32,341 nucleotides of DNA from assembly GCA_030692925.1 (NCBI GenBank), contig JAUYBY010000067.1:1-32341 (forward strand). The letters are read 5' to 3'. The stretch's first letter is position 1; each line of letters opens with the position of its first letter. The translations under genes were made by a program, and so were the position numbers. Shown here piece by piece: positions 5,550-27,926 of the stretch. The DNA is from Candidatus Zixiibacteriota bacterium. Its GTDB lineage: Bacteria > Zixibacteria > MSB-5A5 > RBG-16-43-9. The notes below the pieces were generated by a model. The model made no database searches. It was not told where the DNA came from and saw only the letters and a program-made list of their open reading frames with translations.

Positions 5550-5590
5550 GCCTGTTTTTAATCACCTCCTTTAGTCCTTCGAAATTCTCG

Positions 5591-5661
5591 GTAGACCCGC
5601 GTTGTCCTCAACGTGGGTTAATTCTCCCGCCTTGAGGGCAAGGCGGGGTTACCGATTTATT
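5591..5661. repeat. Family C double hairpin, copy C1
   Basis: CCCGCGTTG-TCCT-CAACGTGGG and CCCGCCTTG-AGGG-CAAGGCGGG. The tail GTTACCGATTTAT is identical to that of C0. Confidence 0.8.
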
Positions 5662-13830: not shown

Positions 13831-14226
13831 TTATCTGTGAACATTTTTTACCTCTAAACTCTCCTTGCCGAAATTTATTACCATCCCTAAGGGAAGCTTG
13901 GTGGCTTTCAAAAAGCTTTTCATTTTGGTTTCATCTGATTCGTTCACCGGCTCACCCGCTTTTATCATAACTATGATGCTGTTTTTCACCACGAATTCTA
14001 AATCATATTCCCCCGCCACGCTTCCTTTATAGGAAAGCTTGATATTTTTCTTTCTCTCGTACTCTGTCTTTCTGAGATCGAACTCATAGGCTAAAGCCTG
14101 ACTATAGGCTGCTTCCTGGAATCCTAAGCCCATGTTCTTGTGGACTTCCAGAGCTGCCTCCAGTATCTGTTCTTGAAGCTCTTTTAAAGACATCTCCTTT
14201 TCTGCTTTGCTTAATTTGTCGCTCAC
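13831..14226 (-). CDS. GxxExxY family protein with altered catalytic motif
   Basis: The 131-residue GxxExxY protein (PD-(D/E)XK nuclease-like fold) shows the family's ILEAALEVHKNMGLGF opening, the GFQEAAY signature, LSYKGSVAGEYDLEF, and the end segment FLKATKLPLGMVINFG. Typical members have VELKA after the catalytic Asp. Here the stretch is VMIKAG, so the Glu of the ExK motif is replaced by Met while Asp and Lys remain. If so, nuclease activity is doubtful. The family is common in environmental genomes and its role is unknown. Start is GTG at 14226 with a weak AAGG, or ATG at 14193 with AAGGAG touching the ATG. Members often stand alone, as here. Confidence 0.85.
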   Translation of the reverse strand: MSDKLSKAEKEMSLKELQEQILEAALEVHKNMGLGFQEAAYSQALAYEFDLRKTEYERKKNIKLSYKGSVAGEYDLEFVVKNSIIVMIKAGEPVNESDETKMKSFLKATKLPLGMVINFGKESLEVKNVHR

Positions 14227-14470
14227 CGTAATGCCTTATTAATAAATGACTTGCAATTAGCGTGCCATTTTTTAACGAAAGGCTAAGTCATTACAATTAA
14301 ATAAGTTAGGAATCAGCCCATTTTAAAATTCTTGATTTTATGCAACTAAACTGTTACACTCTCTTAAGACATTGATGTTAAAAAGGCTATACCGATGCTG
14401 TTTCATAAGATGTAACAGTAATGTGGCGAAATAACTATAATGTTGCAGAAAAACAGTTGAATATGTATTG
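14227..14470. other. Intergenic stretch with one long-range inverted repeat
   Basis: AT-rich DNA upstream of the GxxExxY gene. No gene or RNA family is recognised. The only structure seen is CTGTTACA at 14351-14358 pairing with TGTAACAG at 14411-14418, with a second short pairing (TCTTA with TAAGA) inside. It may hold the promoter of the GxxExxY gene, but no convincing -35/-10 pair was found. Confidence 0.4.
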
Positions 14471-14478
14471 AAAGAAGT

Positions 14479-14530
14479 CTGGAGTAAAAAACCTTTAATC
14501 TTATAGTAAAGCTGAAGCTTTACACTCCAG
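14479..14530. repeat. Nested palindrome CTGGAGT...ACTCCAG
   Basis: Outer arms CTGGAGT and ACTCCAG enclose an inner hairpin (GTAAAGCT, two-base loop, AGCTTTAC at 14506-14523). A related partial copy (TTGGAGTATAAACC) follows at about 14580. Confidence 0.6.
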
Positions 14531-14542
14531 TTCTTGTGGTTA

Positions 14543-14560
14543 TCGGGTCCCCTGACCCGA
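14543..14560. repeat. Hairpin TCGGGTC-CCCT-GACCCGA
   Basis: A seven-pair perfect stem with loop CCCT, the same loop as in the large palindrome at 14691 and in family C. Confidence 0.6.
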
Positions 14561-14614
14561 CAAATATATTAAGTTAGTCTTGGAGTATAAACCTTTAGGT
14601 TTATCGAAGGGTGG

Positions 14615-14638
14615 CACCCTCAAACTCGTTTGAGGGTG
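14615..14638. repeat. Family I hairpin (CACCCTCAAAC)
   Basis: A perfect 11-pair stem with two-base loop inside a GGTGGCACCC context. A sister copy at 24390-24416 has a paired change in the stem (CCCCCAAA/TTTGGGGG instead of CCCTCAAA/TTTGAGGG). Confidence 0.65.
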
Positions 14639-14690
14639 GATGAGCATTGGACTACAATATGCACCAGGGTCAAACTAGATCAACGTGGCT

Positions 14691-14743
14691 GCCAGGTCCC
14701 CTGACCTGGTTCGCCATAGGCGAACCAGGTCAGGGGACCTGGC
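14691..14743. repeat. Perfect 25-bp inverted repeat with nested hairpins
   Basis: The arms 14691-14715 and 14719-14743 are perfect reverse complements with the three-base loop ATA. Each arm is itself a hairpin: CCAGGTC-CCCT-GACCTGG on the left and CCAGGTC-AGGG-GACCTGG on the right, joined by TTCGCC-ATA-GGCGAA. The two inner loops, CCCT and AGGG, are complementary. It lies 45 bases past the end of the sigma-54 activator gene. There is no T-run, so it is not a standard terminator. Confidence 0.9.
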
Positions 14744-14788
14744 AAGCACTGCACTTGATTATTTTAGAAGTTTTATTGAAGAGGAAGA

Positions 14789-16591
14789 CTATTTATATTT
14801 CTTCAAAAGCCTCTGTAGTTCCACCCGGTGCATTCCAGCTTCTTTAGCTGCCCTGGAGACGTTGTTTTTATTTTTCGAAAGAAGATTTTCCAAGAATTTT
14901 TTTTCGACCTCTTCCACTGCCTTATTTCTCAAAGACTTCAGCTCTGAATAATTCTGGGCAATTTTAATATCTGAATCGTTTCCCGAACCATCGAAGATAT
15001 TTTTGGGGAAATCATCCCTGGTAATCCATTCCCCTTTAGCCAGGATAACCGCTCGCTCGATGATATTTTCCAATTCCCTGATATTCCCGGGAAATCGATA
15101 GCGGGAGAGAAAATTCAAAGCCTCAACCTCAATTCCCTTAATCTGCTTATCAGATTTTTTTGAAAATTTTCTGGAAAAACTTTCTGCCAGAGGAGCGATA
15201 TCCAGCTTCCTTTCCCTCAAAGGCGGAAGCCTGAGATTTATCACATTTATGCGGTAATAAAGGTCTTCTCTGAATTTGTTTTCTTTGACCTGGGCTAAAA
15301 GGTCCTTATTGGTAGCGGCGATTATCCTCACGTCTGACTTCTTGACTTTATTGGACCCTAAAGGCTCAAATTCGTGTGACTGCAAAAAGCGTAAGATTTT
15401 GACCTGGAGCAGAGGGCTCATCTCTCCGATCTCATCTAAAAAGATCGTCCCGCCATTGGCGACTTCGAATTTCCCTAACTTTTTCTGAGTGGCACCGGTG
15501 AAGGCACCTTTCTCATACCCGAAAAGCTCAGATTCCAAAAGGGTTTCTGGAATAGCTGCACAGTTTATAGGAACAAAAGGTTTTCGGGAACGGCTGGAGT
15601 TGAAATGGATGGCTCGGGCTAAAAGCTCTTTTCCGGTCCCACTTTCCCCATCGATCAGAACCGTAGCCTCAGTATCCGCAACATCTGCCACCGTTTTTAA
15701 AACCTCCATCATCTGAGGAGAATTCCCCAAAATCTCATCGAACTTGAACTTCCCCCTTAAATCCGCCAAGAGCTTCTCCTCGGATTCTTTCAGCTCCATA
15801 AAAAGAAGGTTATTCTCTAAAGCTACGGAGACCCTTTCGGCTAAGGAGTTCAAAAGCTCTATATCACCGATAGCGAACGATTCTCCTTCGCGAGTATCCT
15901 CCAGATAGATTACCCCTAATACATTCTCTTTGGATTTAAAAGGAACGCAGAGGAGAGATTTTGTCCCTTTGCCCCAATCTTCCTTTTCTTCCATCTCCTT
16001 GTAAATTAGCTGCTGAATTAGAACATTGTTGCCAGTGGAGAGGACGTCCTCTATCACGCCAGATTTGACCTCTTCTTCAGTTTCTTCCAGGACCTTTTTT
16101 TGTTTATCTTTAGCCAGCCTTAATTTCAGATTTTTATTCTCATCATAGACTTCTAAGAATCCCTTTTCTGCAGAGAAGATCTCGATGACTGAGTCCAGAA
16201 CCACCTCTAAAAGCAGGTTGATGTCCCTCTCCGCATAGATTACAGTGGAAAGCTCGTAAAGGATCCGGTAAATCCTTCTTTCGTCCTCCTTCTCCTCATA
16301 CTCTTTTTTGAGTTTTTGATATTCCTGTTCTATTTTATTTAGCCCCTCTTCTAAAGAATTCTCCAGAGACAGAATCTTCTTATCCAGCTCATCGATCCCT
16401 TGGGTTATCTTTTCAAAGGAGGAGGAGAGTTTCGAAGGAGAAAGATTAGATAGTTCGGAAAGGTCACCGCTGATCGAGTTCAAGCCCCGATACAAAAGCT
16501 TAATTCCCTTGCTGCCCGAGTTGGCCAGGGTTTTAAGATTTTCCTCTAAACTGTCTAATCTGGATTCTTCTTTTCTCCTCACGTTTTCCAT
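14789..16591 (-). CDS. GAF-domain sigma-54-dependent transcriptional activator
   Basis: From ATG 16591 the product is 600 residues. The first 100 are coiled-coil. A GAF domain spans about 105-270 and probably senses a ligand. A sigma-54 AAA+ domain follows at about 285-510, with Walker A GESGTGKE, an intact GAFTGA loop for contacting sigma-54, and Walker [11 protein letters not shown]. The end carries a Fis-type helix-turn-helix ([21 protein letters not shown]). There is no receiver domain, so it is a one-component activator. The frame is open to 16720, but the extra residues run through repeat A2. ATG 16591 has AAAGGA upstream and is preferred. No -24/-12 sigma-54 promoter was found in the window, so targets are unknown. 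Divergent from the cysteine-rich gene at 16850. Confidence 0.93.
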
Positions 16592-16642
16592 ATTATCCTT
16601 TATGATTTTTATTGTCAACAGAAAAATCGTTCTCGTTCTTGC

Positions 16643-16658
16643 GGGAATTGGAATTCCC
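16643..16658. repeat. Short hairpin GGGAATT/AATTCCC
   Basis: A seven-pair stem with a two-base loop just beside repeat A2 in the divergent spacer. Confidence 0.5.
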
Positions 16659-16672
16659 ACAAGAGTGGACTT

Positions 16673-16724
16673 GTAGTTGCCCAATTCATTGGGTCCATTT
16701 GGACTCGATAAATCGAGCAACTAC
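16673..16724. repeat. Family A palindrome, copy A2
   Basis: The outer arms GTAGTTGC and GCAACTAC enclose two small hairpins, CCAAT-TC-ATTGG and CTCGAT-AA-ATCGAG, predicting a three-way junction. It lies between two divergent genes. Confidence 0.85.
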
Positions 16725-18727: not shown

Positions 18728-18743
18728 AAAAGCACTTTTCTCA

Positions 18744-18808
18744 GTAGACCCACGTTGCCCACAACGTGGGTGAGGTTATAAAAATCCCGCCTTGAGGGGT
18801 AGGCTGGA
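18744..18808. repeat. Family C double hairpin, copy C2
   Basis: Hairpin CCCACGTTG-CCCA-CAACGTGGG is followed by a decayed CCCGCC...GGCTGG hairpin. Confidence 0.75.
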
Positions 18809-18903
18809 CTTAATAATTTGAAAATTTAGGCTATTTTGATTACGTATTATAAATAGCAGTCGGTATTTCTTTTTTGGTCTCTGACAAGATGCAAGAAAAT
18901 CCG

Positions 18904-18963
18904 GTAGACCCAGGTTGCCCTCAACCTGGGTTAGTCAATGTCCCGCCTTGAGGGCAAGGCGGG
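18904..18963. repeat. Family C double hairpin, copy C3
   Basis: Hairpins CCCAGGTTG-CCCT-CAACCTGGG and CCCGCCTTG-AGGG-CAAGGCGGG. The first stem differs from C2 by a paired C/G swap, and the loops CCCT and AGGG are complementary. Most intact copy. Confidence 0.88.
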
Positions 18964-18979
18964 AATAGCAGACATCTGG

Positions 18980-27869: not shown

Positions 27870-27896
27870 CCAGTACTTATAAATCGACAACCCTCG

Positions 27897-27926
27897 TAAA
27901 CCCACGTTGCCCTCAACGTGGGTTTA
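27897..27926. repeat. Family C single hairpin, copy C5
   Basis: TAAACCCACGTTG pairs perfectly with CAACGTGGGTTTA around the CCCT loop. It lies 95 bases after the DUF2723 stop; the following ATGTTTTTG is a poor T-run, so terminator function is only possible. Confidence 0.8.

Follow-up and report, generated by a model that had tools for sequence, protein, structure and literature searches.

A perfect palindrome in a Zixibacteria genome is very probably a doublet of inverted REP elements

Results

The perfect palindrome at positions 14691-14743 of the window (the whole 32,341-nt stretch that was analysed, contig C59 of genome G000) is best read as a REP doublet, that is, a REPIN or BIME unit of a kind probably spread by RAYTs (REP-associated tyrosine transposases, which act on single-stranded DNA), in which two inverted repetitive extragenic palindromes (REPs) lie with their feet outward around a short palindromic spacer; the probability of this reading was put at about 0.93. 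Genome G000 (2.41 Mb in 112 contigs, about 91% complete) was compared with two genomes of the same genus, G001 and G002 (RBG_16_43_9), and with one of the same family, G003 (4_1_July_SF_Bin42).

Anatomy of the element

The palindrome is flanked by a PD-(D/E)XK-family gene (13831-14226, minus strand) and a sigma-54 activator gene (14789-16720, minus strand). As a sequence-only reading had described, it is a perfect 25-bp palindrome whose arms are themselves hairpins with CCCT and AGGG loops: positions 14691-14715 and 14719-14743 are exact reverse complements with an ATA centre, and a single 25-nt arm folds alone into a 7-bp hairpin, CCAGGTC-CCCT-GACCTGG or its inverse. Chance was excluded as an origin because the folding energy had a z-score of -10.9 and none of 200 shuffles was as good. 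The inverted repeat extends, with two mismatches, to 14685-14749 (31-nt arms, 94%), with GTG and CAC ends; relatives of this whole doublet, 55-65 bp long and 88-95% identical, were found in the sister genomes.

The left REP, on the plus strand, consists of a GTG foot (14685-14687) and the CCCT-loop hairpin (14692-14709), which was defined by core matches, aligned copies and covariation and contains the invariant core used in the searches (14695-14706). The right REP is inverted: its hairpin (14725-14742, minus strand), which reads CCAGGTC-AGGG-GACCTGG on the plus strand, was assigned from core matches and aligned copies, and its foot (14747-14749, minus strand), a CAC equivalent to GTG, from aligned copies and foot counts. 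The spacer between them (14710-14724) is the palindrome TTCGCC-ATA-GGCGAA, a module common to a subfamily of doublets (C8, L084, L183, L186 and L188).

The earlier reading had stressed the complementary loops in this arrangement, but a special loop-loop design found no support. A functional RNA with two hairpins and kissing CCCT and AGGG loops would accommodate both the complementary loops and the presence of the same loops in the window's family C. However, such complementarity is automatic when one REP is inverted; the loops are complementary because the element holds two inverted copies of one REP, which makes kissing loops superfluous as an explanation. Every member of the exact-core set has this loop by definition, so its invariance lends no independent support; the length of the spacer varies widely among doublets, and an Rfam scan of the window gave no match. 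Furthermore, the lowest-energy fold of the palindrome as single-stranded DNA is one 25-bp hairpin (-35.1 kcal/mol), with the three-hairpin form far less stable (-16.2 kcal/mol). We regard a kissing-loop RNA as highly improbable.

Family C (5585-5661, 18738-18808, 18898-18964 and 27890-27923) is a REP doublet family as well; its loops are CCCT/TCCT and AGGG, its foot is GGTAG...TACC, and it also consists of an inverted pair of unlike hairpins. The proposal that the palindrome repeats the principle of family C and may be a product of the same process was sound; the principle is that of the other palindromic families in the window, and the process is the spread of REP doublets.

The repeat family

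A search of G000 for further copies, as the sequence-only reading had suggested, showed that the element is not unique: the 12-nt core GGTCCCCTGACC had 54 exact matches, compared with approximately 0.3 expected by chance and none for a reversed-pattern control. The family REP is a 28-30-nt repetitive extragenic palindrome, GTGNNNGYCRGGTC-CCCT-GACCYGRC. In the aligned copies an unpaired GTG is followed by three variable bases and then by the stem. The GTG was strong in G000 (G in 49, T in 45 and G in 46 of 52 copies) and the fourth base variable, mostly C (GTGN). A GTGG foot was present only in a minority of family copies, the left arm of the window copy among them, and the canonical GT[AG]G foot was not the form in most. 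Some RAYT subclasses are known to have REP-like palindromes in which the tag is incomplete (PMC6006769).

The stems covary. Stem pairs 1, 3, 5 and 6 were Watson-Crick in 47, 49, 37 and 40 of 52 copies, respectively, where independence predicts 25, 26, 21 and 23; these are counts of sequences and not of independent events, yet the two arm types recur at many places. Outside the fixed core, stem positions swap C-G for T-A, or G-C for A-T, in step, and 60 copies from relatives agreed with this covariation. The sites are intergenic, with one of 31 located within an ORF of at least 120 codons as against 74% of random positions.

Copies that matched the strict pattern numbered 52 and 21 in the two same-genus genomes and 12 in the same-family genome. 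The pattern was found in nine genomes of the order and in none of the 48 other genomes of the same class that were searched. Exact-pattern matches in Verrucomicrobia and Kuenenia were rejected as members of the family; with GTGTAGGCCGGGTC or GTGTAGGCCAGGTC, which include a GTAG foot, they appear to represent a separate REP family whose core is similar. Core GGTCCCCTGACC stood behind the GTAG foot (GTGTAGGCCGGGTC...) at the verrucomicrobial loci L063, L065, L071, L079, L081, L112, L116, L117, L119 and L095 and at L075 of Kuenenia. Its occurrence in other phyla may be due either to convergence or to horizontal transfer of a REP/RAYT pair.

Within G000 the family partners are arranged tail to tail. 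All six exact inverted pairs within 60 bp had their feet outward, and an inverted partner, with degenerate partners counted, was present on the tail side of 18 of 52 copies (0.0 in shuffles) and on the head side of 1 of 51, although the palindromic symmetry means that some partners also score in the direct orientation. This arrangement therefore points to the palindrome as a REP doublet. One doublet (G002:C36) matches, in G001, a lone hairpin that has a foot at either end; such a "double foot" REP could come from a central deletion of a dimer (PMC6006769).

Composite REPs were also observed (L003, L014, L021, L054 and L172, the last being G001:C141), and several further partners are of this form: a nested TCCCGCC-GGCGGGA hairpin takes the place of part of the REP, apparently through insertion of one palindromic element into another.

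The locus in the sister genomes

Upstream of the doublet in window coordinates is an older single REP of the same family (14536-14561, plus strand), with its GTG foot at 14536-14538 and an exact core at 14546-14557, which bore out the suggestion that the hairpin at 14543 is related. An orthologous REP was found in both sister species. The hairpin between the two (14609-14638) belongs to another palindromic family; it resembles the repeats that flank a RAYT gene of G000 itself on contig C46 (L060) and has many copies in the sister genomes.

At the corresponding locus of G001 and G002 the single REP was kept and the doublet was absent; the doublet, or its present form, is therefore specific to the G000 lineage among those seen. 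These data bear on the possibility that the element is a transcription terminator or an mRNA 3'-end stabiliser of the sigma-54 regulator gene. The doublet does lie just downstream of the stop codon of this gene (end at 14789, minus strand, approximately 40 bp away), and in other systems, too, most REPs lie downstream of genes and may act at the RNA level (PMC3733652). However, the regulator gene is 94-96% identical in both sister species, which lack the doublet, no T-run follows the hairpin, a terminator scan made no call, and the copies found throughout the family would be left unexplained. Such a role is an unlikely explanation of the element, and could be a side effect of insertion.

The perfect identity of the arms had been taken as a sign of recent formation or strong selection. 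The genomes of the relatives suggest recent change at this site, in keeping with the first of these; as for the second, the identity of the arms gives no sign that the family is under strong selection.

No clean empty site with matching junctions was found at the six loci compared, where the intergenic sequence was instead rearranged or decayed. For C102 an orthologue was lacking; polymorphism was seen at the window locus, at C107 and at G002:C25, but there the sequence was rearranged, replaced or contained in a larger block; and the C8 doublet was kept in G001 with a different spacer. The order of intergenic blocks sharing TTGGAGTATAAACCTTTAGGTTTATC (window 14470-14750 compared with L166 of G002 and L167 of G001) differed in the three species, as if the blocks had been exchanged through that repeat.

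RAYT genes

A RAYT gene flanked by REPs of the studied family was found in the same-family genome G003 (L067:950-1504, minus strand, contig G003:C222). It encodes a protein of 184 aa that scored 103 bits against NCBIfam REP_Tyr_transpos (cut-off 80) and whose sole PDB sequence match was 4er8 (TnpA_REP). Its upstream flank carries a TCG-type family REP, GTGTGCCCGTCGGGTCCCCCGACCCGACGG, which ends approximately 10 bp before the ATG, and an inverted CCA-type family REP, GACTCGCCAGGTCAGGGGACCTGGCGAGCAC, follows just after the stop codon. Judging from these flanks, the locus is a REPtron of the studied family.

No genome other than G003 yielded a cognate-type RAYT: in G000, G001 and G002 no RAYT was closer than 41% to the L067 protein. 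G001 carries the most family copies despite the absence of a close homologue among the RAYTs found. Copy number does not track the L067 RAYT; therefore, either that RAYT was lost or another acts in trans. The five RAYTs of G000, one of which (C85) falls just under the NCBIfam cut-off, were rejected as bearers of the family's REPs, each being flanked by palindromes of another kind. The most similar of these repeats belong to C39 and C85 (GTGCTGTCAGGTG..CACCTGACAGC; GTTGGTC-AGGA-GACCAAC), and these two RAYTs could be trans-acting candidates for the studied family.

Heterodimers and the window homodimer

Among approximately 29 zixibacterial doublets, a non-random collection in that many loci were fetched via the strict pattern or similarity to the window copy, 22 paired exactly one TCG-type with one CCA-type arm, and most others were one-step variants. 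The window copy alone was a CCA/CCA homodimer; one CCG/CCG pair is verrucomicrobial. Since the other doublets have unlike arms, perfect arm identity does not characterise the family and makes the window copy atypical.

Seven heterodimers had DNA folding energies of -17.6 to -21.4 kcal/mol, compared with the -35.1 kcal/mol of the window homodimer. Four of the seven folded as two separate REP hairpins, whereas the homodimer was locked into one. The models place heterodimers close to balance between a long hairpin and two separate REP hairpins, and the long hairpin of the window copy is probably a poorer RAYT substrate. The window copy is possibly an inactive, atypical derivative.

Its status as the sole homodimer could also reflect an assembly artefact, a chimeric palindrome built from two collapsed REP copies. 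REPs do break the G000 assembly, since contigs C4, C35, C71 and C88 start, within their first 30 bases, inside the REP family. Against an artefact, a usual read would be longer than the entire 65-bp element, and the two feet are not alike (GTGGC on the left, GTGCT on the right), as they would be in a simple mirror copy. An artefact is considered quite unlikely.

Template switching can correct imperfect palindromes, a process known as quasi-palindrome mutation. A doublet of G002 (L183, contig G002:C35) has the same spacer as the window copy, ttcgccataggcgaa, between TCG and CCA arms, which makes a heterodimer ancestor of the window copy plausible. The homodimer probably arose by such correction of a TCG/CCA heterodimer through a template switch: the left arm would have been rewritten from the right arm by template switching or quasi-palindrome correction, with perfect 25-nt arms and the long hairpin as the outcome. 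The fourth base of the foot was G in 3 of 45 CCA-type and 10 of 45 TCG-type arms (p = 0.07), which is weak evidence for arm conversion.

Discussion

By its anatomy, the element fits the RAYT scheme. REP doublets are the replicating unit in that scheme (PMC3116915), and the TnpA_REP protein of E. coli cuts and rejoins single-stranded REPs in vitro in a foot-dependent manner (PMC8266576). If the cleavage described and the dissemination proposed in this literature extend to the family, foot, covariation, tail-to-tail pairing, intergenic placement and REPtron observed here, the doublets would behave as non-autonomous mobile elements. In single-stranded DNA, such as the lagging-strand template, each REP would fold into its own hairpin; a RAYT (HuH/Y1 transposase) would then recognise foot and hairpin and cut and rejoin the DNA, so that the doublet is moved or amplified.

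The closest parallels are the REPINs of Pseudomonas fluorescens SBW25 (Bertels and Rainey 2011, PMC3116915), which share the inverted REPs, short spacer, predicted long single-stranded DNA hairpin, intergenic position, over-representation of doublets, compensatory changes and link to a RAYT. They differ in sequence and foot and in number, with 1,422 REPs in SBW25 and copies in the tens in Zixibacteria, where the arms, except in the window copy, are unlike. The GTAG-tagged REPs, dimers, REPtrons and TIRtrons of Di Nocera et al. (2013, PMC3733652) likewise include tagged palindromes, inverted dimers, spacers with complementary ends, a preference for heterodimers in many families and repeat-specific REPtrons, whereas the Zixibacteria tag is GTGN and not GTAG. 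The BIMEs of E. coli also combine a REP with an inverted REP, and REPs flank the tnpA_REP gene (PMC8266576). In contrast to the bulged stem and GTAG foot of E. coli, the Zixibacteria stem is a perfect palindrome, like the group 3 REPs of that paper.

The preference of many REP families for unlike arms has been left without an obvious explanation (PMC3733652). The near-exclusive heterodimer rule seen here, with 22 of approximately 29 doublets and one homodimer, provides a clean natural test of its cause. A tentative suggestion, made by analogy and held at odds well short of even, is that the TCG and CCA arms may represent two different ends, left and right, whose pairing the RAYT requires, as in IS200/IS605 elements. 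Heterodimers would then be obligate; unlike arms would keep the DNA poised between two hairpins and one, and homodimers would be immobile dead ends produced by palindrome correction.

The REP/REPIN kind of element is already known. As far as was found, its family in Zixibacteria has not been described previously: Zixibacteria are unmentioned in the text of PMC3733652, and a literature search that covered only a minority of subscription journals found no paper treating repetitive extragenic palindromic elements and Zixibacteria together. REP/RAYT elements account for a whole class of palindromes in the window, and Zixibacteria are added to their hosts. The RAYT/REP collection of the order is unusually rich: several RAYT genes were fetched per genome (L057-L061 and L120-L149), and most have a palindromic repeat of their own at their flanks, in many cases one that lacks a GTAG foot.
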